NCBI GenBank assembly: GCA_016936655.1
Contig: JAFGXL010000015.1
Coordinates: 62,001-126,000, forward strand
Length of the DNA: 64,000 nucleotides
Direction of reading: 5' to 3'
From: Nitrospirota bacterium
GTDB taxonomy: Bacteria > Nitrospirota > Thermodesulfovibrionia > Thermodesulfovibrionales > Dissulfurispiraceae
Part shown: piece after piece, positions 6,072-36,271 of the stretch
Layout: every line of letters begins with the position of its first letter
Position numbering within the stretch: the first letter of the stretch is position 1
The notes under the pieces: generated by a model
What the model was told of the DNA's origin: nothing
The model's input: the letters and a program-made list of their open reading frames with translations, nothing else
Database searches by the model: none
Made by a program: the position numbers and the translations under genes

Positions 6072-8459
6072 CTAATTTCTGTCGAGCACATCACGTACTT
6101 TTTTAAGCAGGGAATACGGCGTGAGCGGCTTTTGCAAAAAGTCCATCTCTCCTTTTATAATGCCTTTTTGGCTTATAACATCAGCTGTATATCCGCTCAT
6201 AAATATAGTTTTTATACTGCCGCCTGAGGTTGTGATCTCATCATAGGCATCCTTGCCGTTCATCTCCGGCATAAGCACGTCGAGAAGCAGCAGATCGACC
6301 TTTCCTTCATTTTCACGATACATCTCTACAGCTTTTTTGCCGTTCTCAGCTACCAGTATATTGTATCCGCTAGCTGTCAGTATCTCGCGCACCAAATTCC
6401 TTAGCTCAAGATTGTCCTCAGCCACAATTACAGTCTCTCTGCCCTGCATCTCATCAAAAGATTCGAACTCTTGTGTATAACTATCTACATAATATGAAGA
6501 ATCAATTGCTGGCAGATATATTGTAAAAATTGTACCCTTGTCCACTTCACTATCAACAGTTATGCAGCCGTTGTGCTGCTTTACTATTCCAAATACCATT
6601 GCAAGACCTAGCCCTGTGCCTTTGCCCACAGGTTTTGTTGTAAAAAAAGGCTCAAATATATGGCTAATCTTATCCTTCTCTATGCCCTTGCCTGTATCAG
6701 CTACCGAGATCTTAACATACCTGCCCGGCTTCTCGAGCAGAAATGTGTTGGCAAAATTCTCATCAACATCGACTACATCCGTCTCTATTGTCAGCGTTCC
6801 TCCTGAAGGCATAGCGTCTCTGGAGTTTGTCGAAAAATTAACAAGCACCTGATCGAGTTGACCTTCATCAGCCATGGTAAACGCATTTTTCCCAGAAAGC
6901 TTCAGATCCAGCCTTATATCCTCCCGCAAAAGCCTAGAGAGCATCTTCTGTATCTTTGTTATTGCGCTGTTAATATCAACGGGCTTAAGACTAACAGGCT
7001 GCTTTCTGCTGAAGGCCATAAGGCTCTGTATAAGATTTGCAGCCTTTGTGCCTGATGACAATATATAATTCATATGCTCCAGCAGCGGGCTGTCTTCCTC
7101 AAGCCTTGAGCGTACCAGAGAACCGTAGCCCATTATTGCGGTAAGTATATTGTTAAAATCATGAGCTATGCCGCCAGCCAGCAGACCCACAGCCTCCATC
7201 TTTTGCGACTGCCTCAGCTGTTCTTCAAGCAGCTTTTTTTCTGTTATATCTCTTTCTACCACTACAGCAGCTGTTATATTGCCGTAAGCGTCCTTTACCG
7301 GAGACGCGGATACCTCAACATGTCTTATCAGGCCATGAGCATCTGACTGTGTATGGTCGCATGCGACTGTCTTGCCGAGATTAACCATGCTCCTTACAGG
7401 GCATAGTCTTATGTCTGGGTCGCACATGCTGCTTGTGTCAAAGCACTTCCTGCCTTGAGCTTTCTGCATTGTTATGCCGCACATTTTAAGATAAGCCTGA
7501 TTTTCAGACTTTATTGTAAAATCTTTTGTGTCTATAATTACTATCGCTTCATTTGTGATGCTGTTAAGGACTGTATCGCTGAACTCTTTTGCTTCCTGAA
7601 GTTTATTTTCATACTTTTTGCGCTCAGTAATATCGCGGACAATCGCAACTGCGTGCCAGGCTTCGTTAATCTTTACGCTGGATATAGAGAGCTCAACAGG
7701 AAATTCGTCGCCAGTTTTTCTCCTGGTATTCATCTCTATATTGCGTCCAAATACATGCCCCTCGCCTGTTTTGGAAAATTTGGCAAACCCCTTATGAAAT
7801 GACTGCATGTGATCATCAAGCATCATCATATCATGCAAAAAAGATCCCATAGCCTCGTCATATGCATATCCGAACATAGCTGTGGCAGCATCGTTCCAGA
7901 AGGTTATAAAGCCCTTTTCATCTATCATGATTATCGCATCAGTAGCATTTGATGCTATGGCTCTGAACTTTTCTTCACTCTCAAAAAGACTTTTATTGTT
8001 AATTCTGTTCTGAAGAACTACACTCAGCAGACCGGCAAGAGAGAGATATATATCAAGAATATCTTTTGAAAAAAGCTCGTTCCCGGGATAGCTGACAAGA
8101 GCAACAACATTAACTTTGCCTGCTGATGATATAGGCATGCATACAACAGAGTGCGCTCCATCAGAGTCAAAGATATCTGTCTCTATAAACCCATTCTCAA
8201 AAACCTGATTTATTACTTCTGCCAGACCTACCACCATCTCTCCACAGAGTCTCTCTTTGTCTGATGTGCAGTGCAAAATAACAAGCTTTTTGTCAGCTTC
8301 ATGAGCTACAAAAGACACAGATTCTGCCTTCAGATGAGTGCGTATAACATCATCAGCCTGGTTCCAAATATCTACATTTGCCGTTATGCCGGCAATGTAC
8401 TGGGCAGCCTTCATAAACCCGCGGGTTAGCTCTTTGTAGTTACGAGCATGCTTAAGCAT
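6072..8459 (-). CDS. Hybrid sensor histidine kinase/response regulator (GAF-PAS-PAS-HisKA-HATPase-REC)
   Basis: A 795-aa soluble hybrid kinase with no membrane segment. Domain order: a GAF-like region (about 20-155), PAS1 (160-280), PAS2 (290-405), HisKA with His433 in GGIAHDFNNI, HATPase (about 530-650; DTGKGIEKD, GKGTGLGLA), and a receiver with Asp727 in LLLLDVLMPEMNG. PAS2 has a cysteine cluster (C327, C339, C346, C353), the pattern CFx6CxxxxxxC seen in PAS domains suspected to hold metal or respond to redox. Its ATG overlaps the stop of the activase gene by one base, making it the fourth cistron of the corrinoid operon. It therefore probably reports on methyl substrate or redox state for that operon. 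No DNA-binding output is fused. Confidence 0.92.
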   Translation of the reverse strand: MLKHARNYKELTRGFMKAAQYIAGITANVDIWNQADDVIRTHLKAESVSFVAHEADKKLVILHCTSDKERLCGEMVVGLAEVINQVFENGFIETDIFDSDGAHSVVCMPISSAGKVNVVALVSYPGNELFSKDILDIYLSLAGLLSVVLQNRINNKSLFESEEKFRAIASNATDAIIMIDEKGFITFWNDAATAMFGYAYDEAMGSFLHDMMMLDDHMQSFHKGFAKFSKTGEGHVFGRNIEMNTRRKTGDEFPVELSISSVKINEAWHAVAIVRDITERKKYENKLQEAKEFSDTVLNSITNEAIVIIDTKDFTIKSENQAYLKMCGITMQKAQGRKCFDTSSMCDPDIRLCPVRSMVNLGKTVACDHTQSDAHGLIRHVEVSASPVKDAYGNITAAVVVERDITEKKLLEEQLRQSQKMEAVGLLAGGIAHDFNNILTAIMGYGSLVRSRLEEDSPLLEHMNYILSSGTKAANLIQSLMAFSRKQPVSLKPVDINSAITKIQKMLSRLLREDIRLDLKLSGKNAFTMADEGQLDQVLVNFSTNSRDAMPSGGTLTIETDVVDVDENFANTFLLEKPGRYVKISVADTGKGIEKDKISHIFEPFFTTKPVGKGTGLGLAMVFGIVKQHNGCITVDSEVDKGTIFTIYLPAIDSSYYVDSYTQEFESFDEMQGRETVIVAEDNLELRNLVREILTASGYNILVAENGKKAVEMYRENEGKVDLLLLDVLMPEMNGKDAYDEITTSGGSIKTIFMSGYTADVISQKGIIKGEMDFLQKPLTPYSLLKKVRDVLDRN

Positions 8460-10057
8460 CAGTTCATGCCTTCGATGCAGCCGAGATAGAGGTTTTCGAA
8501 AAATACAGGTTCATACTCCTCATCATTTCCCATATTTAATATTGTACACTGCTTTCTTATGCTGTCCAGTCTCTGTCTGTATTCAGGATCGAGGGCTGCC
8601 ATTTCGCAACCTATAAGCGCGGCATTTTCCCAAAGCTCAAACACAGCAGGATCTAGCCTCGGCAGCAGTCCTATTGTCTGCGCATTGCTTATATCAAGAT
8701 ATCTCCCAAATACTCCTGCAACACATATTCGCTTAAGAGACCCTATTGCTACTCCTGATCTACGGCAGAGCATTACCACACATGCAGCTATACCTGCCTT
8801 AGCCCTCTGGATCATATCAATGTCTCTTGGGTTTATATTAATCTTTAGAGCCTCAGCGCACAGACTATAGCTATTTTGTGATTCAGCTATAAATCTGCCC
8901 CTGCTGTCTATAACTCCAAGCTTGAGAAGACATGCAATCATGTCTATGAGTCCTGATCCGCATATGCCTTTTGGCTCTGTGTTGTTTATAACTTCAAATC
9001 CGAGTGCAGAGCTGCCGTTATCAGGCATCAGCACCCTCGAAATAGCTCCTGCATCAGCAGGCATGCCGCAGCTTATGCCGCTCGCTTCAAAAGAAGGGCC
9101 TCCTGATGCTGATGCTATCCATGCTGTATCTCCATCCCACAGCGCTATCTCTGTATTTGTACCGAAGTCTATAAAGAGACCTGGAGTGCTGAATTCTGTT
9201 ATGCCTGTTGCATACAATCCAGCGAGCATATCAGAGCCGACAAATCCTGCAAACGGCTGTACGAGATCAATATCAATACTGTGTTCAGGTTCTGAGTGGT
9301 TAACCAAAAGCTTTCTTCCGTTGCTGACAACACACTGCGCTATGCAGCCCCACGATGCAGGATCAAGCAGTGTATCGCTACAGCATCCTGCCAGCAGCGT
9401 GAGCATAGCTGTATTGCCTACAATAGTGCAGTTCGTTATTTTTGAAAGATCAAGTATCTCCCTGTCTGCTATATCCTTCAGTGCATCAGATATCGCCGTA
9501 AAGGCAGATTCCTGCTGCTTACGGGCAGAATATTCTGAAGCTGATGCAGCAGTAAGTCTGGAAATAATATCGAGACCAAATTCTGTCTGCGGATTTGCCC
9601 CCCTTCTTCCGCCAATCCATCTTGCAGAAGGCATCTCCAGAACAGAGAGCATAATATTTGTTGTGCCAAGGTCAACAGCTACCTTATACCCGTCTGCAGC
9701 ACATCGGCATGATTTATCTTTCACAGAAGATGCTATCATCTGACGGTATCTGGAGTTGAGTATGTGCCATTTAGACTCCGGCGCAGGATAAAAAACCTCT
9801 ACTGAAGCATCTCCAAGAGGAACAGCCTGACAAGCAAGCCTTATATCAGTTTCTAACGAGAAGTGCTCTTCATTTTGTGTAAGGGCGCTGAGGTTGCCGT
9901 CAATAATTCTAACCTTACACAATCCGCAGGCGCCTGTACCCCTGCATCCTGACCTTATGCGTATATCCGCAGACTCGAGTATCTCTCTTATTGTAAGCCC
10001 CTGTTCAAACTTAACAAGGCTCTGGCTATCTTTTATAAATACTTTTAGAAATGGCAT
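8459..10057 (-). CDS. RACo-like corrinoid-protein reductive activase (2Fe-2S ferredoxin + ASKHA domain)
   Basis: A 532-aa protein with an N-terminal plant-type [2Fe-2S] domain, cysteines C38, C44, C47 and C76 (SGCRGTGACGLCKVR), and a long ASKHA/DUF4445 ATPase domain (VAVDLGTTNIML, GLFIDFGTNTEIAL, GICGSGLIDM). This is the architecture of RACo/AcsV and RamQ-type activators, which use ATP hydrolysis to push an electron onto inactive Co(II) corrinoid and return it to Co(I). It overlaps the UroD-like gene by 13 bases and sits two genes after the corrinoid protein. That protein is the likely client, although the CoFeSP encoded at 35-37 kb is another possible client. Confidence 0.9.
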   Translation of the reverse strand: MPFLKVFIKDSQSLVKFEQGLTIREILESADIRIRSGCRGTGACGLCKVRIIDGNLSALTQNEEHFSLETDIRLACQAVPLGDASVEVFYPAPESKWHILNSRYRQMIASSVKDKSCRCAADGYKVAVDLGTTNIMLSVLEMPSARWIGGRRGANPQTEFGLDIISRLTAASASEYSARKQQESAFTAISDALKDIADREILDLSKITNCTIVGNTAMLTLLAGCCSDTLLDPASWGCIAQCVVSNGRKLLVNHSEPEHSIDIDLVQPFAGFVGSDMLAGLYATGITEFSTPGLFIDFGTNTEIALWDGDTAWIASASGGPSFEASGISCGMPADAGAISRVLMPDNGSSALGFEVINNTEPKGICGSGLIDMIACLLKLGVIDSRGRFIAESQNSYSLCAEALKININPRDIDMIQRAKAGIAACVVMLCRRSGVAIGSLKRICVAGVFGRYLDISNAQTIGLLPRLDPAVFELWENAALIGCEMAALDPEYRQRLDSIRKQCTILNMGNDEEYEPVFFENLYLGCIEGMN

Positions 10058-11055
10058 TCTCTGGATGCCCTTATCATAGCGTCAATATTTTCGGGTCTGG
10101 CCTCCGGAGGCACCTCGCATCCCGAAGAGAGTATAAAACCGCCCTGTCCTGCAAATGTCTTTATCAGGCGAACTGATTCTTTATATATGTCCTCCGGACT
10201 GTCTTCAACCAAAGACAGAGGCTTTATGTTTCCTGCAAGGCATACTCCGGGCATAAATCTGCGTACCATGGCAGGTTCTACGCAATAGTCGCAGTTCGCT
10301 ATATCAACTCCTGCGTCCGGATAGTGAGGCATGATAGGCATGGTTTTTCCTGCTATCTGGAGCCAGTTTGCCACAGCTCCTGCAGATTTAAAAGATTTAC
10401 ATATCCTCTCTATTCTGGGCAGCGCCATCTCTCTAAAAAACTGCGGAGGTATAACCTCAGGACTTGAGGATGGCTCAAATATTATAGGCAGATGAGCTCC
10501 TGCATCGATCTGGGCTTTACCGAACTCAACAATAACATCTGCTGTGTAGTCAAGCAGTTTTTCGAATTTATCAGGATCTTCAACAGCCATAAACAGGGCA
10601 TCCTGAACGCCCAGATATTGTATAGCCAATGTTACAGGCCCCATTACACAGCCAACTACCAGCATATCGTCCTGCAGCTCTTTTCGCATAATCTCAACAG
10701 CCTTAATCATCTGGGGCATGCGTCCGTCTTTTTTGGGATTCGGAATTCTGGCTTTCAATGAATCAGCGATTGGAATATGCTTTCTTACTGATGGATAATT
10801 ATTTATAAAATAGTCTACTTCTGCTCCCATAGCCTCAGCTTCAACGCAAACATCCATAACAGAAAAAACTGCATGATGTCCGTATCTCAATAAGGCTTCA
10901 AGCTGACATGTCGCAATCAGCCCTCCGTCTTTAACATAATCTTCGACAGAAACACCCTTAAGTACTGCCGCATGTCCGAATATCTGCGGCACTACAGCAA
11001 CATCACCCTTTTTATCAATCTTGAGGGCAGCATTTATGCATTGCATGCCTGTCAT
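10045..11055 (-). CDS. UroD-fold corrinoid methyltransferase (MtaA/MtbA/CmuA-like), atypical zinc site
   Basis: A 336-aa uroporphyrinogen decarboxylase-family protein of the cobamide methyltransferase branch, which moves methyl groups from a methyl-corrinoid protein to an acceptor. The layout, including GPVTLAIQYLG, IFEPSSSPEVI, LAGNIKPLSLV and ILSSGCEVPPEARPENIDAM, matches that group. In MtaA/MtbA the catalytic zinc is held by His-x-Cys in a LHICGNT-like motif plus a later Cys. Here the motif reads WLQIAGKT, with Q233 and A235, and only C313 remains. The acceptor may therefore not be a zinc-activated thiol such as CoM. It lies three bases after the corrinoid-protein stop. True HemE is excluded by sequence type and context. 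Confidence 0.88.
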   Translation of the reverse strand: MTGMQCINAALKIDKKGDVAVVPQIFGHAAVLKGVSVEDYVKDGGLIATCQLEALLRYGHHAVFSVMDVCVEAEAMGAEVDYFINNYPSVRKHIPIADSLKARIPNPKKDGRMPQMIKAVEIMRKELQDDMLVVGCVMGPVTLAIQYLGVQDALFMAVEDPDKFEKLLDYTADVIVEFGKAQIDAGAHLPIIFEPSSSPEVIPPQFFREMALPRIERICKSFKSAGAVANWLQIAGKTMPIMPHYPDAGVDIANCDYCVEPAMVRRFMPGVCLAGNIKPLSLVEDSPEDIYKESVRLIKTFAGQGGFILSSGCEVPPEARPENIDAMIRASRECHF

Positions 11056-11058
11056 AAT

Positions 11059-11688
11059 CTAATTATTGCTGACTGCTGCCTTTGATTCCAGATAGTGCAG
11101 CCCTTCAAAAGCGTTGTCAGCAACAAAATCAACATTCAGATGTTCAGGAGTGGACTGTTTAAGAGCTGCACCGCCGGCAACAACACTTATACTGCCTATA
11201 CCAAGCGCCTCCAGCTGACTCTTTATCTTCCTTACATTGGGAATAACTGATGTTATAAGTCCGCTCACAAAGACAGCATCAGCTTTTTCATTCAAGGCTG
11301 TCTCAGCAAGCTTTTCAACAGGACAATCCTTGCCGCAGTCTATAACATGGTACCCCTTGCTTGCCAGCAGCATCTTTGTGATGTTTTTGCCTATATCATG
11401 CACATCTCCCTCAAGAGCAGCTATCACAACAGTGCCTTTGTCCCTTGATGAAGCTATGCCGTTTGGAAATATCTCGGTGATTACAGCTGTAAGACATCTG
11501 CCAACCAGCATTATCTCAAGAAGATTAAACTGTTCGATAGTGCATTTTGCATCGAGCCTGTTCATAGCAGGGTCAATACCATTAAGCACTATGCTGTCAG
11601 GAGATACGCCTTTTGAGACAAGTGCAGCTGCCTCTGCCACAGCCCTGTTTCTGTCGCCATCAAGAAGAGCCTTTATAAGACCATCCAT
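11059..11688 (-). CDS. Methyltransferase cognate corrinoid protein (MtaC/MttC family)
   Basis: B12-binding carrier of a methyl-transfer system. With the start at MDGLIKALLDGD it is 209 aa, the usual length: a four-helix cap (1-85), then a Rossmann domain with the cobalt-ligand motif D95-V-H97-D-I-G100 and the later VVAGGAALK. The frame extends upstream to 11778, but the extra 30 residues are unlike the family, and ATGs at 11703 and 11697 are alternatives. None has a clear ribosome site. It is the first gene of the operon with the UroD-like transferase, activase and kinase. No substrate-specific methyltransferase (MtaB, MttB or similar) is in the window, so the methyl donor is unknown. Confidence 0.9.
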   Translation of the reverse strand: MDGLIKALLDGDRNRAVAEAAALVSKGVSPDSIVLNGIDPAMNRLDAKCTIEQFNLLEIMLVGRCLTAVITEIFPNGIASSRDKGTVVIAALEGDVHDIGKNITKMLLASKGYHVIDCGKDCPVEKLAETALNEKADAVFVSGLITSVIPNVRKIKSQLEALGIGSISVVAGGAALKQSTPEHLNVDFVADNAFEGLHYLESKAAVSNN

Positions 11689-11824
11689 TGTATACATATA
11701 CATATTATCGGCAATAAATTGTATTAATTTAGAACTAGTTAGAAGAATGGTATATAAGGTTTTATAAAGAAGGAGCACAACGAATTAACTAATTGATTAA
11801 TAATAATTCTTACACTTATAAATA

Positions 11825-14859: not shown

Positions 14860-15933
<1,074 letters not shown>

Positions 15934-15967
15934 TCAATAAGTATATGCAACTTATAACAAAACCGCG

Positions 15968-17191
15968 TCAGCGCAACAATTCGTCAGTAAAGGACTTTGC
16001 CGGCAGCATTATAGTAACATCCGTACCGCTTCCCTGGCTGGAGCGGACATTTATTTTGCCGGCCTGCGCCTGGATGAGATACTGAGCAAGCGTGAGACCG
16101 AATCCTGCCTTCTTGTGTGCTTCGGTAGTAAAAAATGGTTCAAAAATATGGTCAAGAGCTTTCTCAGAAATTCCACAACCTGTATCTGCAACAACTATCC
16201 TGACAACCCCCTCTTCAACAGATAGGCAGACCTTAATCTTGCCGTCATCAGCAATCGAGTCAACGGAATTCTGGAGCACATTTTCTATGGCATATTTAAG
16301 CTGCTCGGAGTTGCACTCAGCAAATGCGTCTCTGTCAGGCAGATCAAGAGTCAGCTCAATGCCTGCACGCAGCCCCACCTTAAAACTTCTGACATGCTCG
16401 CTGAGCAGACTGCTTATATTATGCATGCCTGTTCCGCGCAATCCGCTCGCGTGATCAATCTTCATCAGACACTGAACAATTGAAGACACCCTGTCAAAGC
16501 CGTCCAGCACCTCTGAAACGAGCGGACTTATGTCCTGTTTGATGCAGACAAGTTTTTTCGAATCGATTCCTGCTGATGATGAGCTGGCCAATAGCTGGTC
16601 TGCCGCATCCGCAAGAAATCCTGAATATTTTTTAAGTGTGGAGAGATTGCTCTTTATGAAGCCGAGAGGATTGTTGAGTTCATGCGCAAGCGCGCCGGAG
16701 AGGCGCGCAAGCGCAGTCACCTTCTGCTCCTCAATCATCCTGTTTTGAGCTTCGCGTAGAGATTCATAGGCATTCTGCGCCTCTGCCTTTGCTTCGGTAA
16801 GTTCTTTTTTAAGATCAGCAGTACGGCATGCTGCGCTAACTCTGGCGATAAACTCCTCATCTATAAATGGCTTTACAATGTAATCGTCAGCCCCGCGATT
16901 AAGTCCATCTATCCTGCTCTCAATATTTGATCTGGTAGTAAATAAAATAATGCTGTAGAGATGTTTTGTTGTGCAGAGAAATTCGAGCACCTCGAGTCCG
17001 TCAAACTCAGGCATCTCGATGTCGAGCAGAACAACATCAGGCTTATATCTGACAACCTGGTCTATACCTTCCTGTCCTGATGAAGCTGTTTCAACACTAT
17101 ATCCATTCTCTTCAAGAAGGTCTTTTGCATACTGTCGCGCTGACTTGCTGTCATCAATTACTAGTATCTTGTGCGCATTCAGCGTATTCAT
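15968..17191 (-). CDS. Receiver-histidine kinase of the chemosensory operon
   Basis: A 407-aa soluble protein with an N-terminal receiver (D57 in VVLLDIEMPEFDG, K107 in IVKPF), a coiled-coil linker (about 120-155), a HisKA region with His170 in GALAHELNNPLGF, and an HATPase domain (NVLQNSVDSI, DTGCGISEK, GFGLTLAQ). Such receiver-kinases relay a phosphoryl signal onwards rather than sensing it directly. Its ATG overlaps the cheD stop (ATGA), so it is a true member of the che operon. Its likely input is CheA. Its output partner is not evident; CheB or one of the single-domain receivers are candidates. Confidence 0.9.
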   Translation of the reverse strand: MNTLNAHKILVIDDSKSARQYAKDLLEENGYSVETASSGQEGIDQVVRYKPDVVLLDIEMPEFDGLEVLEFLCTTKHLYSIILFTTRSNIESRIDGLNRGADDYIVKPFIDEEFIARVSAACRTADLKKELTEAKAEAQNAYESLREAQNRMIEEQKVTALARLSGALAHELNNPLGFIKSNLSTLKKYSGFLADAADQLLASSSSAGIDSKKLVCIKQDISPLVSEVLDGFDRVSSIVQCLMKIDHASGLRGTGMHNISSLLSEHVRSFKVGLRAGIELTLDLPDRDAFAECNSEQLKYAIENVLQNSVDSIADDGKIKVCLSVEEGVVRIVVADTGCGISEKALDHIFEPFFTTEAHKKAGFGLTLAQYLIQAQAGKINVRSSQGSGTDVTIMLPAKSFTDELLR

Positions 17192-17811
17192 TCAAGAGTC
17201 TCCAAATATTCTGTTTTTCTGAGACGCTTTAAATAGACATCGCCTGTATGTGTATGGAATATTATTTTTCTGCCCTGAAGACCTCCAACATCAAATGTCA
17301 CAAGATCAAGACTTCTTGCATCTATAATCTTCCTGGCAATTTCGATATTCTGCCTTCCAACAGTAAGATTTGTACCAGACTGGCTGTTAGGCAGCATCTC
17401 AGCGCCGCCAAAAAGCTTAACATCAAGTTCGCTTTCAGCAATGCCCTTATCATGAAATTTTTTGAGCATTCGCTCTATTGCAAAGTCAACATACCTTAGC
17501 CCTTCTGATGACACAAGATCAAAACTCATCTTTCCTTTATATGTTGGAAGCATTCCATGACATATAGCTCCAACCCCATTCCTTGTACTGTACATAACAA
17601 CAGATACGCACGAGCCGAGAACTGTTGTAACAATAGTCGGACTCTCGGCAAAATGCATCTCACCGGGCTTGAGGTAAACTCTTTTTATCTTGAGGTAGTT
17701 ACGCATCAGCTTATTTTCCCCGGACAGGCATAACCCATGCCCTGTATTTATGACATCTTGGCCGACAACAGCATTATAAGACCTGCTTTCTATCACCGCA
17801 GGGTATACCAT
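17188..17811 (-). CDS. cheD: Chemoreceptor glutamine deamidase
   Basis: Deamidates specific glutamines of methyl-accepting proteins so that CheR can methylate them. The family core is complete: VVTTVLGSCVSVVMYS with catalytic Cys (C68 in the long form), HGMLP with the catalytic His (H85), KLFGGAEML, and the closing GGxxGRKIIFHTHTGDVYLKRL. The ATG at 17811 overlaps the cheR stop (TGATG) and gives 207 aa. ATG at 17706 (MRNYLKIKR) gives a more typical 172 aa and has GGGGAAAAT upstream. Both starts are plausible; the core is the same. Confidence 0.93.
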   Translation of the reverse strand: MVYPAVIESRSYNAVVGQDVINTGHGLCLSGENKLMRNYLKIKRVYLKPGEMHFAESPTIVTTVLGSCVSVVMYSTRNGVGAICHGMLPTYKGKMSFDLVSSEGLRYVDFAIERMLKKFHDKGIAESELDVKLFGGAEMLPNSQSGTNLTVGRQNIEIARKIIDARSLDLVTFDVGGLQGRKIIFHTHTGDVYLKRLRKTEYLETLE

Positions 17812-18656
17812 CAGGATATCTTCCTGTATATTGTTGGCGCTGCCTGTTCAAGAGGCAGGTCAAGACCATTTAGCGTCTCTGAATGCCCGACAAAAAGATA
17901 TCCGCCCTTTGCAAGATGCCTGCAAAATTTACTCAATACCCTGTGCTGGGTTTGACGGTCAAAATATATCAGCACATTTCTGCAGAATATAACGCCGAGC
18001 TTCTCCCTGAAGCCAAAATCCTCTTCAAGGAAGTTCAGCCTTCTAAACTTGACAGCCTGTCTAAGCTCAGGCGCTATCCTTACAAGCTGGTTGTTTTTAT
18101 CCCTGCTCCTTAAAAGATACTTTTCACGCAGCGGTTCAGGCATAGGAGATATCTGGTCAAACTTATAAATAGCCCTGTGAGCGCTCTCGAGCACCTTTGT
18201 GCTTATATCAGTTGCGAGCACTGTAAACTGGAAATCCGGCCGGACTGACTGAAACTCTTTAAGCACCATTGATATGGTATAAGGCTCTTCTCCGGTAGAG
18301 CATCCGGCGCTCCAGAGAACAAGCCTGTTTCCCTGTCTGTTTATCAGTTCAGGCACTACACGACTGATTAGATACTCAAAGTGCGCGGGCTCCCTAAAGA
18401 AATCGGTCTTGTTGGTTGTTACCACATCTATCATATGAACAACCTCCTGATCAGCTCCCTCTTCGCTGAACAAAAAGTCGCAATACTCTTCAAATGAATG
18501 CATTTTAAGCGCTCGTAGCCTTTTAAGCAGTCTCGCCTCGAGCATCGTCTTTTTTGAGTCAGCCATTTTTATGCCGCACTCATTCTGGATATATTCGCTA
18601 AGGCGGTTAAAGTCCCTGCCTGACATTGTTATATCTTTTACCTGACGATGAAACAT
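17811..18656 (-). CDS. cheR: Chemotaxis protein methyltransferase
   Basis: Uses S-adenosylmethionine to methylate receptor glutamates. I place the start at ATG 18656 (MFHRQVKD), 281 aa, because the upstream in-frame extension to 18722 runs through a strong hairpin and is unlike the family. An AAAGGA site precedes the chosen start. The N-terminal helical domain contains FNRLSEYIQNECGIK. The SAM-binding domain shows LWSAGCSTGEEPYTISM, VLATDIS and FCRNVLIYFD. It is followed by cheD with a one-base overlap. Confidence 0.94.
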   Translation of the reverse strand: MFHRQVKDITMSGRDFNRLSEYIQNECGIKMADSKKTMLEARLLKRLRALKMHSFEEYCDFLFSEEGADQEVVHMIDVVTTNKTDFFREPAHFEYLISRVVPELINRQGNRLVLWSAGCSTGEEPYTISMVLKEFQSVRPDFQFTVLATDISTKVLESAHRAIYKFDQISPMPEPLREKYLLRSRDKNNQLVRIAPELRQAVKFRRLNFLEEDFGFREKLGVIFCRNVLIYFDRQTQHRVLSKFCRHLAKGGYLFVGHSETLNGLDLPLEQAAPTIYRKIS

Positions 18657-18674
18657 ATTGACCGGTCCTTTTTT

Positions 18675-18716
18675 GATCTGCTGCGGGGTGGGTCCCCCGC
18701 TGCCCCGCAGCAGATC
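18675..18716 (-). other. Strong hairpin in the cheW-cheR gap
   Basis: A perfect 14-bp inverted repeat (GATCTGCTGCGGGG at 18675-18688, its complement at 18703-18716) with a GC-rich 14-base loop fills the short space between the cheW stop and the cheR start. On the transcribed strand the hairpin is followed by A residues, not T residues, so it is not a classic terminator. It could stabilise or process the mRNA and alter the cheW to cheR protein ratio. Confidence 0.6.
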
Positions 18717-18725
18717 ATGCATAAG

Positions 18726-19226
18726 CTACTCAGATCCCGAACCTGAGCTTGCTCCCTGCACAACAGCTATCTCTTCAGATGAAAAGATCTTATCTATGTC
18801 CAGTATCATGATGAACTGGTTGTCTCTCTTGCCCATCCCTGTTATAAAATCTGTTCTGAGCCTTGTGCCTATCTTAGGAGCCGGCTCTATCTGGTCAGGC
18901 TCCAGGTCTATAACCTCCTGCACCGAGTCAGCAAGCGCGCCGAGCACAGTCACTTCGCCTTCAATATTTATTTCCACTATGATGACGCAGGTATTAACCG
19001 TCTTCTCTGTCCTGCTCATCCCAAACTTGAGCCTAAGATCCACCACAGGCACTACACTGCCCCGAAGGTTTATAACTCCGCGCATAAAATCAGGCGTCTG
19101 CGGCACTTTTGTTACAGTTGTGAAGTCAAGCACTTCCCTCACCTTGGATATGTCAACTGAGAAGATCTCTTCATCCAGTTTAAAGGTCAGGTATTGTGTT
19201 GTTTCTGTTATTCCGTTTACGCTCAT
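18726..19226 (-). CDS. cheW: Chemotaxis coupling protein
   Basis: A 166-aa scaffold linking methyl-accepting proteins to CheA. It has the two-lobed CheW fold with YLTFKLDEEIFSVDISKVREVL, FMRGVINLRGSVVPVVDLR (the receptor-contact region), VLGALADSVQEVIDL and FITGMGKRDNQFIMILDIDKI. A GGGAGGG ribosome site precedes the ATG. It lies 15 bases after the methyl-accepting protein gene, with a stable hairpin between it and cheR. Confidence 0.95.
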   Translation of the reverse strand: MSVNGITETTQYLTFKLDEEIFSVDISKVREVLDFTTVTKVPQTPDFMRGVINLRGSVVPVVDLRLKFGMSRTEKTVNTCVIIVEINIEGEVTVLGALADSVQEVIDLEPDQIEPAPKIGTRLRTDFITGMGKRDNQFIMILDIDKIFSSEEIAVVQGASSGSGSE

Positions 19227-19241
19227 ATCACCCTCCCTTTC

Positions 19242-20936
19242 TCAGAATTTCTCGAACTCTTCATCAAGCTTGTCTGAACCTTCACCCATGTCAAGATGGA
19301 CTCCGCCTTTTTTTGCTCCTGATTCAACTTTTTTAGTCTCGTGTCCAATATGAGCAACCTTTGCCTTCTGCAGCGCCTTCGGAGCTGCTGTCTGAGGCCT
19401 TACCACTCGACGGGATGAGCTGCTGCCCCTGTCATCCGCCTTAAAGAAGGCTATAGTGCTCTGGAGCTGTTCTGCCTGCGAAGCGAGTTCTTCTGATGTT
19501 GATGCCATCTGTTCAGAGGCGCTCGCGTTCTGCTGTATCACCTGATCAAGCTGCTGTATTGCCTTGTTGATCTGGTCTGCTCCGCTGTTCTGCTCATTGG
19601 AAGCAGCTGTAATCTCCTGCACCAGCTCCGCTGTTTTTTGTATATCCGGCACCAGCTTGGCAAGCATCTCTCCTGCCTTCTCAGCAACCTCAACGCTGCT
19701 TGTTGAGAGCTGGCTGATCTCTGCTGCTGCTGTCTGGCTGCGCTCAGCGAGTTTGCGCACTTCTGATGCCACAACCGCAAAGCCCTTGCCATGCTCGCCT
19801 GCCCTTGCAGCCTCTATCGCCGCGTTAAGAGCGAGCAGATTAGTCTGGCGCGCTATCTCTTCTATAATTGATATCTTGCCTGCTATCTCTTTCATGGCTG
19901 CCACTGTCTCAGACACAGATTTACCGCTCTCTCTGGCGTCATTCGCTGACTTTAGAGCTATCTTCTCTGTCTGCTGCGCATTGTCAGCATTTTGTTTGAT
20001 GTTGGAAGACATCTGCTCCATTGATGATGACGCCTCTTCTGCTGCTGCTGCCTGCTCAGTGGCTCCCTGGCTCATCTGCTCAGAGCTTGCGCTAAGCTCC
20101 TGGCTGCCTGATGCAACATTGTCAGCCGCGCTCTTCACATCTCCAACTATCTCCTTCAGCTTCTCGACCATTGTCTTCATAGCTTGCAGCAACTGCCCGA
20201 CTTCATCATTGCTGCGGACATCCACATTCATTGTGAGATCACCCTGCGAAAGTCGAGTAGCCACATCAACTCCCTCGCTGACAGGTTTAACAATACTGCG
20301 GGTTATAAAGAGCGCCATGCCTATAGCAAACAAAATGCTGATACCGGCTAGACTGAACAGTTCAATTCTGGCCTCGGAGTATTCTTTCTTTGCTTCTTCA
20401 TGCCTCATCTTGTTTCTCTCCACCTGAAACACAATAAGCTCATCAAGCATATCCATGAGTTTTCTTCCTGCAGGCCTCACTTCTTTCATCAGCACTTCTG
20501 CTGCATCAGCATCTTTATTTGCGGAGATCAATGCGACCATCTTGTTATTTACTTCCCGTGTGGCAGTGAGAGCAACATTAAGCTTGGCAAACAGCTCTTT
20601 GCCCTTATCATCTTTTGTAAGCTCATCCACTTTTTTTGATGCAGCATTGTATTTGTCGCGCTCTTCCGCTATAGTCTTCAGTGCGTTTTGACGCTGAGCA
20701 GAATCCTTTACAATTACAAGATTCCTGAGCTGAATATTGATTTCTGCAACGCTTCCAGACATTGTATTGGCATGAATAAGACGCGTTGTATTGACATTAA
20801 CTATACGCTCGAGATTTTCCTGTATTCCACTCATGCTGTGTATGCTAAGCCCTATAGCAATAACCATTAATACAAGCACCACAGCAAAAGCTACACCCAG
20901 CCGCATACCTATCTTCATGTTATAAAACCACTTCAT
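19242..20936 (-). CDS. Methyl-accepting chemotaxis protein (4HB sensor, HAMP)
   Basis: A 564-aa transmembrane receptor. TM1 is about 11-31, a periplasmic four-helix-bundle sensor spans 32-190, TM2 about 192-212, HAMP about 213-265, and a long cytoplasmic signalling domain (about 270-500) contains the hairpin tip [20 protein letters not shown]. The C-terminus is a flexible basic linker ending in the acidic-aromatic tail LDEEFEKF, resembling the CheR/CheD-recruiting tails of some receptors. The ribosome site is GGAGGG. Its ligand cannot be told; 4HB sensors bind small molecules or partner proteins. It is cotranscribed between cheA and cheW. Confidence 0.94.
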
Positions 20937-20995
20937 AATGTCCCTCCTTCTGTTTTTTTAAATTCATCCAGCTATGCGCACTTTGATTAAGAGTT

Positions 20996-23101
20996 CTATC
21001 TCGCCACCTCCCGCTTTTCTGCGCTCTCTACAAGTTTTTGTGTATCAAGTATCAGTGCCACGCTGCCGTTGCCCAGTATAGTGGCCCCTGATATCCCGTC
21101 TGCTTCTTTATAAAATCTCCCGAGGTTTTTAAGCACAGTCTGGTGCTCTCCTATTACATGATCAACCACAAAACCGACCCTCATGCCATTGACTTCAGTT
21201 ATAACAACCTGCTCTATTGCAGGCTTCTGCCCAGCCATATCGAACTGCTCGCGCAGGCTTATATACGGCACAAGCTCTCCGCGCACAGTAACAGTGTTTT
21301 TGCCATGCGCAGCTGCCCGCTCTTTTTCCGTCAGCTCTATGCACTCCTGCACAGCTGACAGCGGCAGCACAAAGCTGTCCTGCTCTATATTCACGAGCAG
21401 TCCGTCGATAATGGCGAGTGTGAGCGGCAGTTTGAGTGTGATGGTTGTGCCGATATTTTTTTCGCTCTCTATCTCTATTGAACCCCTCAATGAGTCGATC
21501 GCTTTTTTGACAACATCCATGCCTACGCCGCGGCCGGATACATTTGTTACTGTCTTGGCAGTAGAGAATCCGGGCAGCAGTATTAGTGAGAATATCTCCT
21601 TGTCCGTCAGAGAAGCATCATGCGATATAAGCCCCTTCTCTACCGCCTTTGCCCGTATCACATCAGGGTCAAGGCCTTTTCCGTCGTCAATTATCTCAAT
21701 CAGGACATTAGCGCCTGAATGTCTGGCAGAAAGATGCAGATTGCCTCTTCTGGGCTTGCCTGCTGCCTCGCGCTCATCAGGCAATTCTATGCCGTGATCT
21801 ATGCTGTTTCTTATAAGGTGCACCATCGGGTCGCCGAGCTTGTCTATAACAGTCTTGTCCAGTTCTGTCTCTGCGCCATCGGTTGTGAGCTCTATCTCCT
21901 TATGCAGCTCATTTGAAAGATCGCGCACAAGCCTCTTGAATTTGCTGAATGTGCTGCCAATAGGGAGCATGCGTATGCTCATCGTGTTATCACGAAGTTC
22001 AGCAGAAAGACGCTCCACCTCTTCAGATATAAGCAGCAGCTCAGGATTGTTGTTATTTGCGGCTGTCTGTGTGAGCCTTGCCTGCACTGTTACGAGTTCG
22101 CCGACAAGGTTTACAAGCATGTCGAGCTTTTCTGAGGCAACCCTTATGCTGGTATCGGTCTCTACCTTTTGTCGCTTGTCGCGCACTCCCTGTATATGCT
22201 TCTGCTCAGTCAGCGCTGTCTGTATCTGGTCGCTGCTGACAAGTCCTTCTTCAACCAGCAGTTCGCCTATCCTCTTTTGTTTGTTCAGCACATTCTGGAG
22301 CGATTCAGCCGAAATATCGCCCCTTTCTGCGAGTATTTCGCCAACCTTCTTTACGCTCACTTCTCCATCTGTGCCGGTCAGACGGTCAATAACATCTATC
22401 TTGAGTTCGCACTCATCCTCAACAAATATGAACACATCCTTTATAGCGTCAATCCCGAACTCTGTTGTCAGTATGATGTCCCAGTATGTGTAGCACATTT
22501 CAGGATCAAGATCAGTCATGAGCGGAATGTCGCATGTCTGTGCGACTATGGTGCTTTCACCCATTTCTGACAAATCCGAAAGAAACATGAGGGGATTGAT
22601 GCCGCGGGTTATTATGTCTGCCACAGGGCGAAACCTTATGCGGTAGGTGATGAGCTCAGATTCAGCTTCTTCTTTTTTTGTCTTTTTGGACTTTTCATCA
22701 AGACTGCCCTTTGCTGAGGCAGGCGCCATCTTTTTGAAGGCCGCAACAAGCTTAACCCTTTTTGTCTTGTCGCCTGCCGGCTCACCATCAGCAGCATCCA
22801 GCATTGCCCTTATCTGGTCCCTTGCCTCCAGCGTCAGGTCTATAAGCTCTTTTGTAACAGTCGCCTTGCCGTTTCTGACCAGGTCGAACACTGTTTCTAT
22901 CTCATGAGTGAATGATACTATCTCATCAAACCCGAACATCGCGCCGGAGCCTTTTATGGTATGCATTGCCCTGAATACGCGGCCTATCAGGTCAGCGTCC
23001 TGAGGTGTCTCCTCAAGCTCAAGAAGCGAGCCCTCCAGTTCAGCAAGCAGCTCTGATGCCTCTTCCCTGAAAACTTCCTTGTGCTTGTCGGTCATTGACA
23101 T
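20996..23101 (-). CDS. cheA: Chemotaxis histidine kinase CheA with internal MshEN-like repeats
   Basis: A 701-aa kinase at the centre of the array. The Hpt domain is at 1-105 with His47 (FRAMHTIKGSGAMFG). A variable middle domain covers about 150-240. Two tandem motifs follow at 251-275 (VGEILAERGDISAESLQNVL) and 277-300 (IGELLVEEGLVSSDQIQTAL). Then come dimerisation (EKLDMLVNLVGELVTVQARL), HATPase (HLIRNSIDHGIE, GVGMDVVKK) and CheW-like domains. The two repeats match the RLGxLLxxxGxxxxxxLxxAL pattern of MshEN domains, some of which bind cyclic di-GMP. No phospho-acceptor CheY is fused. It follows the STAS gene by two bases. Confidence 0.95.
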   Translation of the reverse strand: MSMTDKHKEVFREEASELLAELEGSLLELEETPQDADLIGRVFRAMHTIKGSGAMFGFDEIVSFTHEIETVFDLVRNGKATVTKELIDLTLEARDQIRAMLDAADGEPAGDKTKRVKLVAAFKKMAPASAKGSLDEKSKKTKKEEAESELITYRIRFRPVADIITRGINPLMFLSDLSEMGESTIVAQTCDIPLMTDLDPEMCYTYWDIILTTEFGIDAIKDVFIFVEDECELKIDVIDRLTGTDGEVSVKKVGEILAERGDISAESLQNVLNKQKRIGELLVEEGLVSSDQIQTALTEQKHIQGVRDKRQKVETDTSIRVASEKLDMLVNLVGELVTVQARLTQTAANNNNPELLLISEEVERLSAELRDNTMSIRMLPIGSTFSKFKRLVRDLSNELHKEIELTTDGAETELDKTVIDKLGDPMVHLIRNSIDHGIELPDEREAAGKPRRGNLHLSARHSGANVLIEIIDDGKGLDPDVIRAKAVEKGLISHDASLTDKEIFSLILLPGFSTAKTVTNVSGRGVGMDVVKKAIDSLRGSIEIESEKNIGTTITLKLPLTLAIIDGLLVNIEQDSFVLPLSAVQECIELTEKERAAAHGKNTVTVRGELVPYISLREQFDMAGQKPAIEQVVITEVNGMRVGFVVDHVIGEHQTVLKNLGRFYKEADGISGATILGNGSVALILDTQKLVESAEKREVAR

Positions 23102-23103
23102 AT

Positions 23104-23445
23104 CTATTCCCCTTTTATCCAGAGACAGCTTCGGGTTTTGTCATGGACGCAGCCAATCTCTCTCCTGAAGCCTGACTGTTTGATTATCTTCTTCACCGAT
23201 TCGCTCCTTCTGCCTTCGATCTCAAATTTTTTGTTCAACGCAATGCTGGTGCGATGCGCGGAGCAGAGGAACTGGAGCGCAAATATGTCCGCGTCAGTAA
23301 CCTTTTCGAAGTTCATAATTATTGATTCAGCATTCTCGAATGCTTCCAGTATCTTTGTTCGCAGAGGGACAATATCATCTATCATCACTTCGCCTTCAAG
23401 ATTCATCAAACAGATATTCCCGTTATTCTCTACCTTCAGCTCCAT
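23104..23445 (-). CDS. STAS-domain protein
   Basis: A 113-aa single-domain STAS protein (anti-anti-sigma-like fold) with the start at MELKVENNG, where GGGGGG serves as ribosome site. The frame also runs up to 23484, overlapping cheY, but that part is not conserved. Key features are LMNLEGEVMIDDI near the N-terminus and the ADIFALQFLCSAHRTS helix. The usual phospho-serine position (DSSG) is ADIFA here, so regulation by serine phosphorylation is doubtful. STAS proteins often appear next to cheA/cheY in non-flagellar chemosensory operons. Its partner is probably within this operon. Confidence 0.8.
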   Translation of the reverse strand: MELKVENNGNICLMNLEGEVMIDDIVPLRTKILEAFENAESIIMNFEKVTDADIFALQFLCSAHRTSIALNKKFEIEGRRSESVKKIIKQSGFRREIGCVHDKTRSCLWIKGE

Positions 23446-23458
23446 TGCGTCCCCCCGA

Positions 23459-23824
23459 TTATTTGACGAATTTCTTGACAACATCCTTCAGCTGATCCGG
23501 CACAAAAGGTTTTACCAGCCAGCCGCTTGCGCCGGCTTCTTTGCCCTGCTGTTTTTTTGATTCCTGAGATTCTGTGGTGAGCATAACTATCGGAACAAAA
23601 CGGTTGCCAGCCGTTGTTCTGAAAGTCTTGATGAATTCTATGCCGTCCATCTCCGGCATATTCAGGTCTGTTACAACCATATCTATCTTTGCTCCACTGA
23701 TTTTAGAAAGTGCGTCCTTTCCGTTTACAGCTGCTATTACATCGTATCCGGCATCTTTGAGTGTGAAGGCTACGAGCTGCCTCATTGAAGCAGAGTCGTC
23801 AACAATAAGAATCGTCTTTGGCAT
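23459..23824 (-). CDS. cheY: CheY-like single-domain response regulator
   Basis: A 121-aa receiver domain. Conserved residues are visible: the acidic pocket IVDDSASMRQ, phospho-acceptor D54 in VVTDLNMPEMDG, T84 region MLTTES, and K106 in LVKPF. It is phosphorylated by CheA and passes the signal to an effector. Flagellar motor genes are absent here, so the effector may be type IV pili or another process. It sits between the second methyl-accepting protein and the STAS gene. Confidence 0.93.
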   Translation of the reverse strand: MPKTILIVDDSASMRQLVAFTLKDAGYDVIAAVNGKDALSKISGAKIDMVVTDLNMPEMDGIEFIKTFRTTAGNRFVPIVMLTTESQESKKQQGKEAGASGWLVKPFVPDQLKDVVKKFVK

Positions 23825-23850
23825 GCCTTAAGTTCCTCCTTATATAAGCT

Positions 23851-25011
23851 TCAAGATTTATTTTTAAGAATTTTTTGTATTACTTTGCGCTCAGAATCCA
23901 TGGTGTACATTTTTTCGAGCCAGGCAGCGCTTCCGCTCTCTTCAATCAAGTGCATTTTTTTGCTCATCTCATCTGCCCTTAGTGTCATATCCTCAAATTC
24001 GGTCTTAAATGACATGAGCGGTTCGATCACATGCTCAATTCTCTGTCTGGTTATATCCTGAAACTGCATGGATACAAGGATACCGCTTATGTCTTTAGCG
24101 AGCCCTTCTGTGCCTTCTGATATTTCATCCAGCTTTTCCCTGGCAGATTCAAGCACTCCATCTATCTGCTGAAGGGTGTTTTCGACAACAGAATCTGCCT
24201 GTGTTGATCGTTCTTCTATATCTGCTGCGTTCTGTCCTGTTCTCTGGCATATGCTGCTGAGGTCTGACTCGATCTTGACTATAAGTTTGCGTATGCCTTC
24301 AGCAGCGCTGTTGGAAGATTCAGCAAGCCTGCGCACCTCATCAGCAACTATCGCAAAGCCCCTGCCGTGTTCTCCTGCTCTTGCTGCCTCAATAGCAGCA
24401 TTAAGCGCGACCATATTAATCCTGTCCGCAAGGCTCTCAATCTCAGCAACTATCTTTTTGATACTCTCTGCATCGCCTAATATTAGCGTAAGATCTTCAA
24501 GCGCCTGTTTAGCAACTCCATCTATGCTTCTTAAGTTGGATATAATCTCATGAAGCGCTGTTCTGCTTATATCAAGGAATGCCGCGCTCTCTGCGCCTTT
24601 GCCGCCTGCAAGCCCGGAAAAAGCTTCTGAAGCCTTTGATGACTGGCCTCTTGCTCTCTGGACTATATCCATAAACCTTTCTCCTATTTCGAGTGCTGCC
24701 TTTTCTGTCTCATCAACAACCTCTCTAAGCTGATCTGTAAGCACAGGGAATATGCGCACACGGTCACGCATCAGAGCAGATATAGGCTCCATGCAGGACT
24801 CCAGCTCTTTTATATGCTGCTCTTCGCGTTTTTGGAATGTTTTTTCGAGTGCTTCAGAATAGATTTTTATCAGATATATAATTGCGGCAATGGCTGCCGG
24901 GATAATAACAAGAGCTGCTATGATGCTCGCCATATAGCCGCTTATAAAGGCTGGAACTGATGCCAGAATGACAATTAGTGATACAGCTGGTATGAGTTTT
25001 TTCCGGGACAT
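23851..25011 (-). CDS. Methyl-accepting protein with short membrane anchor and no periplasmic sensor
   Basis: A 386-aa receptor-like protein. Two closely spaced hydrophobic segments (about residues 7-46) anchor it with almost no external loop. The rest is a coiled-coil signalling domain containing [21 protein letters not shown]. After the tip the helices diverge from classical receptors ([19 protein letters not shown]), a pattern seen in MCP-like proteins near STAS and receiver genes. It probably senses an internal cue or membrane state. ATG at 25011 is preferred over the TTG just before it because AGGGAGGG is well placed. Confidence 0.88.
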
Positions 25012-25027
25012 CAAGTCCCTCCCTTTT

Positions 25028-25417
25028 TCAGTTTTTTCTGTTTGCTATCATTACATCTACCTTATGAAGCAGCTCCTCAGGCTCAAACTGTTTAACCATC
25101 AACTCTGTATATCCGTTGCGCCCAAGTTCGAGTGCATAGCTTGTATTGTCAGCATGACCGCTCAGCACAAGAACCGGCGTTGCGATATCATTGCGCTGCA
25201 GTGCATAAACAAACTCTATGCCTGACATTACAGGCATCTGTATATCCAGTATTATCAGATCATAAAAACTGTTATGCTCTTCAGCATTCATCAGCATATC
25301 CAGTCCCTGCGCACCATTTGATGCCTCATCAACCTCATACCCGGCCCTCTTTAGAGTCAACTTAAGAGCAAATCTGAACTGCTCTTCATCATCAACTATC
25401 AGAATTTTGTTGCTCAT
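25028..25417 (-). CDS. Single-domain response regulator, first gene of the chemosensory operon
   Basis: A 129-aa receiver starting at [13 protein letters not shown], chosen because GAGGTGG stands just upstream. The frame runs on to 25471, but that extension contains the sigma-54 promoter. Phospho-acceptor Asp is in [13 protein letters not shown]. The conserved switch Ser/Thr is in VLVLSGHAD. The usual lysine motif KP is changed to VKQFEPE, with K kept. No output domain is present. It is separated by 13 bases from the methyl-accepting protein gene downstream. Confidence 0.88.
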
Positions 25418-25454
25418 CACATCCACCTCATAACTGATTTTGACACTTTTCTTT

Positions 25455-25470
25455 TGCATGAACAGTGCCA
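25455..25470 (-). promoter_or_regulatory. Sigma-54 (-24/-12) promoter of the chemosensory operon
   Basis: The minus strand reads TGGCACTGTTCATGCA, with a perfect TGGCAC -24 element and a -12 GC twelve bases on (ATGCA instead of TTGCA). Predicted transcription start is near 25444, about 27 bases before the first gene's start codon at 25417. An NtrC-type activator gene lies immediately upstream. Confidence 0.72.
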
Positions 25471-25497
25471 CTATTCTGAAATAATTTTTTTAGTTAA

Positions 25498-29597: not shown

Positions 29598-30445
29598 TTT
29601 CCCTCTATATTTATATGCTCATGCTTTTTCTTCCACTGCATAAAAGACACCTTCTCTTCATCCTGATATGTCTTCTGTCTGGACATTAGCAGGTTCCAGT
29701 CAACAAGATGGCCGTCAAATTCTGGGCCGTCAGTGCATGCGAACTTTGTATCTTTGCCTATCGGCACCCTGCATCCTCCGCACATGCCTGTGCCGTCAAC
29801 CATTATAGGATTAAGGCTTACTACTGTATGTATGCCGTACGGCCTTGTTGTCTCTGAAACAAACTTCATCATTATAGCCGGACCTACTGTAAGCACAAGG
29901 TCAGCTCCGTTTTCATCTATCTCCTGTTTGAGAGCTGCCGTGACAACGCCCTTTATGCCTTTGCTTCCATCATCTGTAGTGACTATCACCTTGTCGCTCA
30001 CATCAGCCATCTCTTTTTCGTAAACAAGCAGGTCGTGACTGCGTGCGCCCATTATAGTTACAACATTACTGCCTGATGCCTTGAAAGCCCGCGCTATCGG
30101 ATACAATGAGGCAACTCCAAAGCCTCCTCCTACAAGGATTACTCTGCTCACTTTTTCTATATGAGTCGGCTTGCCTAGAGGTCCGCAAAGGTCAAGAATA
30201 TCATCACCCTCTTTCATCATCACAAACTCATTTGTGGTCTTGCCTACAGCCATAACTATTAGGCTGATAGTGCCTTCATAGGGGTTGATATCAGCAAGAG
30301 ATATAGGGATTCTCTCTCCCTGATCATGGAGCCTCACGATAACAAACTGACCGGGCTGCGCCTTTTTTGATATGAGCGGAGCATCAATTTTGAAGTAATA
30401 AACATCCGGGGTTCTGATAAGTCTTTTTTCTAATATTTTTGCCAT
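29594..30445 (-). CDS. nfnA: NADH-dependent ferredoxin:NADP+ oxidoreductase, small subunit (NfnA)
   Basis: A 283-aa FAD/NAD-binding protein of the dihydroorotate-dehydrogenase-K/sulfide dehydrogenase type. The N-terminal beta-barrel binds FAD (GQFVIVRLHDQGERIPISL), the middle binds NAD(H) (ILVGGGFGVASLYPIARAF), and the C-terminus carries a [2Fe-2S] cluster bound by Asp and cysteines (DGTGMCGGCRVPIG, then FACTDGPEFDG). It is the site of NAD(H) reaction and bifurcation in the NfnAB complex. No ribosome site is obvious before the ATG. A perfect 18-bp hairpin separates it from cooS, so it may have its own promoter. Confidence 0.92.
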   Translation of the reverse strand: MAKILEKRLIRTPDVYYFKIDAPLISKKAQPGQFVIVRLHDQGERIPISLADINPYEGTISLIVMAVGKTTNEFVMMKEGDDILDLCGPLGKPTHIEKVSRVILVGGGFGVASLYPIARAFKASGSNVVTIMGARSHDLLVYEKEMADVSDKVIVTTDDGSKGIKGVVTAALKQEIDENGADLVLTVGPAIMMKFVSETTRPYGIHTVVSLNPIMVDGTGMCGGCRVPIGKDTKFACTDGPEFDGHLVDWNLLMSRQKTYQDEEKVSFMQWKKKHEHINIEGK

Positions 30446-30545
30446 AGTTGTATATTTTAAACAATAACTCTGGGCTTATGCAATCATAAGATCATGTACA
30501 ATCAGCATACCGGAAAGGCACAAAAACCTTGCAAAACAAAAGGAA

Positions 30546-30585
30546 AATTAAAGAGCGGCTCGCTTATGCGAGCCGCTCTTTAATT
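30546..30585. terminator. Perfect 18-bp bidirectional terminator between cooS and nfnA
   Basis: The stem 30546-30563 pairs perfectly with 30568-30585 around the loop TTAT. It contains GAGCGGCTCGC/GCGAGCCGCTC and is followed by T residues on the minus strand. It ends the cooS message and shares its core with the hairpin after nfnB. Confidence 0.88.
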
Positions 30586-30603
30586 TTAGTGAAACAAGAT
30601 CTT

Positions 30604-32598: not shown

Positions 32599-32623
32599 AA
32601 TGCCTCCGTAAGGGGACAATTTT

Positions 32624-34822: not shown

Positions 34823-34885
34823 CTCTCCTCCCTTTTTCTCTACCCTTCAAATCTCTTTGCAGGGATATATTTTATAACATCCTTT

Positions 34886-36226: not shown

Positions 36227-36271
36227 ATATCCTCCTCAATAAACATTTCGGATTAAAGTTTTGAATCAATC

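Follow-up and report, generated by a model that had tools for sequence, protein, structure and literature searches.

Described systems closest to the operon

The mec cassette for dichloromethane (PMC9768040) is the nearest precedent for a kinase encoded beside corrinoid methyltransferases. In this cassette, a corrinoid protein (MecB) and methyltransferases of the uroporphyrinogen decarboxylase (UroD) type (MecC, MecE, and MecI) cluster with a two-component system, consisting of the kinase MecA, reported with a PocR domain, and the receiver MecD, as well as with MecF (MTII) and a transporter. We analyzed a 64,000-nucleotide stretch of a Nitrospirota genome (Dissulfurispiraceae; assembly GCA_016936655.1, contig JAFGXL010000015.1, positions 62,001 to 126,000; hereafter the window), in which consecutive genes for a corrinoid carrier, a UroD-fold protein, a RACo-like activase, and a hybrid histidine kinase lie on the minus strand from 11703 to 6072. 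Like mec, this operon clusters a corrinoid protein and a UroD-family protein with two-component signaling, but it has a single UroD protein, a dedicated GAF domain in its kinase, and no MTII (MtrH is absent from the genome and AcsE is encoded only in a distant CODH/ACS cluster), and outputs of the module can be GGDEF or HD-GYP. Beyond what a preliminary description of the locus had recognized, the module is widespread, its sensor domain is dedicated, and its output domain is interchangeable. We consider it moderately probable that the operon is a cytoplasmic multi-protein chemosensor with corrinoid methyl-transfer chemistry as its input.

Three other systems and a family of kinases share parts with the operon. 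Type 1 MGCs (PMC10418091) also combine an MtaA-like protein (Mlp), a corrinoid protein, and a Ram/RACo activase without a clustered folate methyltransferase. They require two or more Mlps bearing the His-Cys-Cys zinc site that is tied to sulfur and selenium acceptors, and are linked to methyl-sulfur and methyl-selenium, whereas the operon has one UroD-fold gene, with Q233, A235, and C313 in the place of His-Cys-Cys, and an added sensor. In the accessible part of its description, the Cdm chloromethane system (CdmBCA; PMC13222342) has a zinc-free UroD-fold protein, a small corrinoid protein, and an activating enzyme, as does the operon, together with a methyl acceptor, CdmA, and no sensor is described in that part. 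CdmB is a remote match to the UroD family of the window (profile E 6.6e-8). Reactivation of split methionine synthase involves a RamA-like protein and DUF1638, the latter with a genetic link to reactivation of B12 in Phaeobacter (PMC5764234). The module shares with it a RACo-like protein, to which type-B modules add a DUF1638-like gene, but the operon has a sensor protein in place of a MetH part. The MsmS and RdmS kinases of Methanosarcina, as cited in PMC11784639, are likewise sensor kinases linked to methyltransferases; RdmS-type kinases are presented there as lacking an H-box, and the titles cited point to a haem or thiol redox cue.

Recurrence of the module and its GAF-fold domain

Open reading frame coordinates and Pfam domains bear out the four-gene operon and the gene identities of the preliminary description (table 1). 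Searches of Pfam, NCBIfam, and PDB sequences agree on the families of the four genes, and every equivalog cut-off was missed. The UroD-fold protein scored 125.8 versus 400 bits for MtaA (TIGR01463) and 103.1 versus 600 for MtbA, the RACo-like protein scored 243 versus 800 bits for AcsV, and the corrinoid carrier fell below the cut-off of TIGR02370. In the order of transcription, genes are separated by a 3-bp gap, a 13-bp overlap shared by the UroD and RACo genes, and a 1-bp overlap at which the kinase ATG meets the RACo stop. The open frame of the corrinoid gene reaches upstream to a GTG at 11778. The kinase has the Pfam domains PAS, PAS, HisKA, HATPase_c, and Response_reg and the residues of a hybrid histidine kinase (H433 in HisKA, DxGxG at 588 in the HATPase domain, and D727 in the receiver).

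The gene order is not particular to the window. A profile of 11 UroD relatives was searched against GTDB genome contigs and yielded a clade of 67 loci (L053 to L118 and L120; 63 bacterial and four archaeal; 13 named phyla). The order corrinoid, UroD, in some loci a DUF1638-like gene, RACo, and signaling protein recurs in this clade across at least 13 phyla, far beyond chance; a search for it in related genomes had been proposed in the preliminary description. Six of the 67 loci end too early to judge. In 58 of the 61 testable loci, L078 among them, the next gene downstream encodes a signaling protein, mostly within −64 to +105 bp, and larger offsets in a few loci are due to miscalled gene starts; the exceptions are L067, with a lone UroD gene, L107, and L108. 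A signaling protein was seen at zero of 13 outgroup UroD loci (Fisher p = 5e-12, which is descriptive because related loci are non-independent). The earlier proposal that sensing is part of the module is supported. A substrate methyltransferase adjacent to the module in relatives, which the preliminary description had named as evidence to the contrary, was not seen in about 80 loci.

Other features of these loci vary. No other gene family neighbors the module in more than seven of 80 loci, and those families look lineage-specific; a conserved catabolic neighbor was sought among the 80 loci and not found. The operon and nearly all homologous loci have one UroD-fold gene. Nine loci have a UroD–RACo fusion, the only kind of fusion that is real, as apparent corrinoid–UroD and RACo–sensor fusions are miscalled starts. 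The nearest named relative, in a metagenome-assembled genome of Nitrospiraceae (L053), has a UroD protein with 71% identity, and about 12 of 100 relatives have a UroD module. On a complete plasmid of Candidatus Thiodictyon syntrophicum, the four genes have generic annotations and a diguanylate cyclase output. In the type-B modules L097, L098, L101, and L103, the gene between UroD and RACo was named DUF1638-like by eye. At 13371–18703 of L031 (the region of L097), a type-B module with an NtrC-type regulator adjoins genes that, by eye, are nitrous-oxide-reductase-like and cytochrome-like. We found no description of the four-gene module in the open-access literature.

One dedicated GAF-fold domain opens most signaling proteins of the module. 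In the window kinase, the N-terminal domain is below the Pfam GAF gathering score by sequence (GAF_2 E 0.01) and its AlphaFold2 model (pLDDT 93.8) has a GAF fold. Its first ∼140 residues can be aligned with 40 other module sensors, with QY, SGF, and LP conserved. The domain is matched in eight of 100 relatives, each time at a module, and 23 of 25 module genomes have a single copy of it; a fragmentary second match in these 25 is at a contig end (L168). In 396 Nitrospirota genomes, seven of eight matches are at modules when those of G014 and G338 are counted with the strong ones, and the weak match in G338 led to a previously unseen UroD–sensor locus (L170). The weakest of the eight (L171) is in a large multidomain protein with no trio of corrinoid, UroD, and RACo genes within the stretch examined. 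A weak lone match in an Armatimonadota genome (L166) sits behind another corrinoid–UroD pair. On the basis of sequence comparison, the four-gene unit and its dedicated GAF-fold domain are established.

An orphan second copy of the domain (L167), with no trio within 1.5 kb, was observed in a Holophagaceae genome that also bears a full module (L091).

Histidine kinase, hybrid kinase, GGDEF, and HD-GYP outputs are swapped among module sensors. Pfam identified 34 HATPase, 10 GGDEF, and four HD domains (which read as HD-GYP) among 50 sensors, and a 48-row tree built from the trio shows three or more switches of output. Nitrospirota rows are scattered in several places on this tree, which suggests horizontal transfer of the module. 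For MsmS and RdmS, we know of neither a dedicated GAF domain linked to a trio nor a swapping of outputs. Because cyclic di-GMP outputs regulate no promoter directly, we infer that the sensor is downstream of the trio and not its regulator. Autoregulation through sigma-54 was rejected as a candidate, with the upstream motif in eight of 54 loci versus a background of 12%, which is not clearly higher.

Corrinoid methyl transfer as a candidate sensory input

The carrier and the activase look functional because their motifs are conserved. The carrier has the cap and Rossmann domain of MtaC/MtbC-type proteins, and its lower-ligand motif DxHxxG (D100, H102, and G105) is conserved in 63 aligned homologues. 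By the model used, it is the sole methyl-carrier type B12-binding protein in the genome; the other three B12-binding matches are radical-SAM-like judging from their N-termini. The RACo-like protein has the [2Fe-2S], middle, and ASKHA domains of RACo/RACE reductive activases, with three Pfam domains over cut-off, and all four [2Fe-2S] cysteines (C38, C44, C47, and C76) are conserved in 54 homologues.

Full conservation of RACo and its cysteines would also suit a redox or gas sensor, in which Co(I) that becomes oxidized (by O2, nitrite, or N2O) or that RACo fails to recharge reports the supply of ATP and low-potential electrons and the UroD protein is a scaffold. Also consistent with such a sensor are the loss of the UroD thiol/zinc site, the module hosts, most of which we take to be anaerobes, denitrifiers, or sulfur bacteria, and the type-B module beside a gene judged by eye to be nitrous-oxide-reductase-like (L031/L097). 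Nevertheless, this explanation is quite improbable, as a conserved, full-length MtaA-like barrel (pLDDT 93.6) would be superfluous for pure redox sensing and a linked RACo is missing in some variants. A CarH-like cobalamin photoreceptor feeding kinases and cyclases is less plausible by far. Photoreceptors exist in which a cobalamin-binding domain is fused to diguanylate cyclases and GAF domains, with a CarH-type signature of GxxW, EH, GxxH, and GxxxP (PMC11796333), and some hosts of the module are phototrophs. But the W...EH part of the signature is in zero of 63 corrinoid proteins, on which ground the candidate was rejected, the window protein has no Trp, and photoreceptors need neither RACo nor UroD.

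The UroD-fold protein has retained its fold and changed its metal site. Its AlphaFold2 model (pLDDT 93.6) is an MtaA-type TIM barrel, with MtaA (4ay7/4ay8) as the nearest structure (TM 0.90 to 4ay7). In the motif W231-L-Q-I-A235-G, the zinc ligands His-x-Cys of MtaA are Q233-I-A235. Across the clade, readable sequences have Ala, or rarely Thr or Pro, in place of the first zinc Cys, behind an invariant Trp, and the last zinc-site Cys (C313 in the window) is kept. A role as a thiol methyltransferase is unlikely because the first zinc cysteine is lost in all relatives and the histidine in the window protein; methyl transfer to coenzyme M or another thiol was rejected on the lost cysteine.

The zinc thiol site is also needed for homocysteine, and its loss tells against a split B12-dependent methionine synthase with a regulator, in which the UroD protein would methylate homocysteine. 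In favor of such an enzyme, no MetH or MetE match was found in the window genome or in most relatives. However, a UroD module is in about 12 of 100 relatives, whereas MetE and MetH are missing from nearly all. We regard this role as scarcely credible and rejected it, given the lost site and an order-wide absence of MetE and MetH that is irrespective of the module.

MetE and MetH are gone from almost the whole order (S-methyl_trans in three and Meth_synt_2 in 11 of 100, several of them weak), in which methionine is probably synthesized by a folate-independent enzyme.

Proteins of the UroD superfamily can be substrate demethylases; CdmB, MtvB, OdmB, and CmuA are examples, and a zinc-free one is described (PMC13222342). 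For this reason, the UroD-fold protein of the operon may, by analogy, itself be the substrate enzyme. This revises the preliminary description, which held that no substrate methyltransferase was present. That statement is partly misleading. The genome (a 2.0 Mb draft, 97% complete) has no MttB, orphan copies included, and no MtrH. It does not follow, however, that a first methyltransferase is lacking; what the operon is without is a methyl acceptor or second methyltransferase of the MtrH/AcsE type. The only pterin-binding proteins of the genome are FolP and one AcsE (37257–38192), and an acceptor in trans is possible because this AcsE is encoded in the CODH/ACS cluster.

The CODH/ACS cluster at 28185–39149 of the window, for the carbonyl branch of the Wood–Ljungdahl pathway, comprises cooS/acsA-like, acsB, acsC, acsD, acsE, and accessory ATPase genes, followed by glutamate synthase-like genes.

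With an acceptor encoded elsewhere, here AcsE and CODH/ACS 20–30 kb away, the module could be an ordinary catabolic or detoxifying demethylase in which the UroD protein is the substrate methyltransferase and the sensor merely regulates the operon by substrate. Precedents are a zinc-free UroD-fold demethylase, CdmB (PMC13222342), and the joining of corrinoid methyltransferases with a two-component system in mec (PMC9768040), and the CODH/ACS cluster with AcsE in the window is complete. Still, we find this explanation, the main alternative, somewhat unlikely. Beside the module, conservation does not extend to any acceptor methyltransferase, transporter, or catabolic gene, GGDEF and HD-GYP outputs have no direct promoter action, and sigma-54 motifs are not enriched upstream. 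In addition, of 25 module genomes, 12 have no match or only a weak one to the Wood–Ljungdahl corrinoid protein CFeSP (PF03599), including those of Sulfuricella, Oscillochloris, Halochromatium, and Myxococcales (drafts, in which absences are soft). Because of this and because MttB is present in only three of the 25, a shared catabolic role via the Wood–Ljungdahl pathway is unlikely for the family; it is possible in the window organism.

In the chemosensor that we favor, the methyl-transfer proteins are probably the sensor front end, because the four-gene set recurs with interchangeable outputs. RACo would spend ATP and a low-potential electron to keep the corrinoid protein charged as reactive Co(I). 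To this Co(I), the UroD-fold protein would present a small ligand that is most likely methylated, and the reaction would leave a methyl-Co(III) (or oxidized) corrinoid. The GAF-fold domain is predicted to read this state, for which it would probably dock on either the corrinoid or the UroD protein, and to switch the output, which is a hybrid histidine kinase here and a plain kinase, GGDEF, or HD-GYP elsewhere. We infer this direction of signal flow, the physical contact, and methylation rather than redox as the cue. The suggestion in the preliminary description that the kinase may be fed by a methyl or redox sensor gains support as a reading. Outputs acting through cyclic di-GMP are difficult to reconcile with simple regulation of a catabolic operon. 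Also in favor of the chemosensor, distances among GAF-fold domains correlate with those among RACo (0.85), corrinoid (0.80), and UroD (0.78) proteins, values reached in zero of 2,000 permutations, although shared ancestry contributes to the correlation. Further support lies in the signaling protein at 58 of 61 loci, the near-exclusive GAF-fold domain, the UroD–RACo fusions, the replaced zinc Cys, and the patchy CFeSP and rare MttB of module genomes.

Several points weigh against the chemosensor. Permutation tests take no account of shared ancestry. Gene adjacency gives no signal direction and a dedicated regulator co-evolves with its target too. Type-B and Nitrospinota kinases have the GAF domain in common with the other sensors only weakly or not at all, and an orphan copy exists (L167). 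Some Nitrospirota modules have an NtrC-type regulator and no linked RACo, which might fit a self-regulating operon. In the nearest analogue, the mec cassette, the two-component system is read as a transcriptional regulator (PMC9768040).

A broader proposal, which may equally well hold or fail, is that a mobile corrinoid trio is the receptor of a new class of sensors, in which methylation state is passed by the dedicated GAF domain to two-component or cyclic di-GMP signaling in bacteria and methanogenic archaea. If true, corrinoid methyl transfer, known from catabolism and biosynthesis, would also be a widespread sensory mechanism. Many genes labeled "uroporphyrinogen decarboxylase family," "cobalamin-dependent protein," and "ASKHA domain protein," such as those on the Thiodictyon plasmid, could then be assigned a role open to testing. 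Modules can be found with the dedicated GAF domain as a marker, and direct experiments are feasible in a named host, for example Acetobacterium tundrae DSM 9173. Even if the module were a regulated demethylase, it would be a widespread corrinoid system of which we found no description.

Feature coordinates and neighboring genes

Table 1. Features of the operon, in positions of the window.
Feature	Position	Strand	Basis
Corrinoid carrier (MtaC/MtbC-like: helical cap and B12-binding domain)	11059..11703	−	Pfam B12-binding, B12-binding_2
UroD-fold MtaA-like methyltransferase (putative), altered metal site	10045..11055	−	Pfam URO-D, AlphaFold2 model, motif table
RACo-like corrinoid reductive activase ([2Fe-2S] and ASKHA)	8459..10057	−	Pfam Fer2, Raco_middle, RACo_C_ter; PDB 3zyy
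Soluble hybrid histidine kinase (GAF-fold-PAS-PAS-HisKA-HATPase-receiver)	6072..8459	−	Pfam, motif positions
Dedicated N-terminal GAF-fold domain of the kinase	7998..8459	−	Alignment with other module sensors; conserved QY, SGF, LP

No cobalamin riboswitch or other RNA was found upstream of the operon, tRNAs being the only RNAs found in the window, and a scan for promoters and terminators around the operon was near the expectation from shuffled sequence. A few kb upstream on the strand of the operon, a chemotaxis-type cluster (14860–25471) encodes CheB, CheD, CheR, CheW, CheA, two MCPs, and receivers. At 47098–49159, a gene for a DNA cytosine methyltransferase adjoins an uncharacterized gene, with which it possibly forms a restriction-modification pair.

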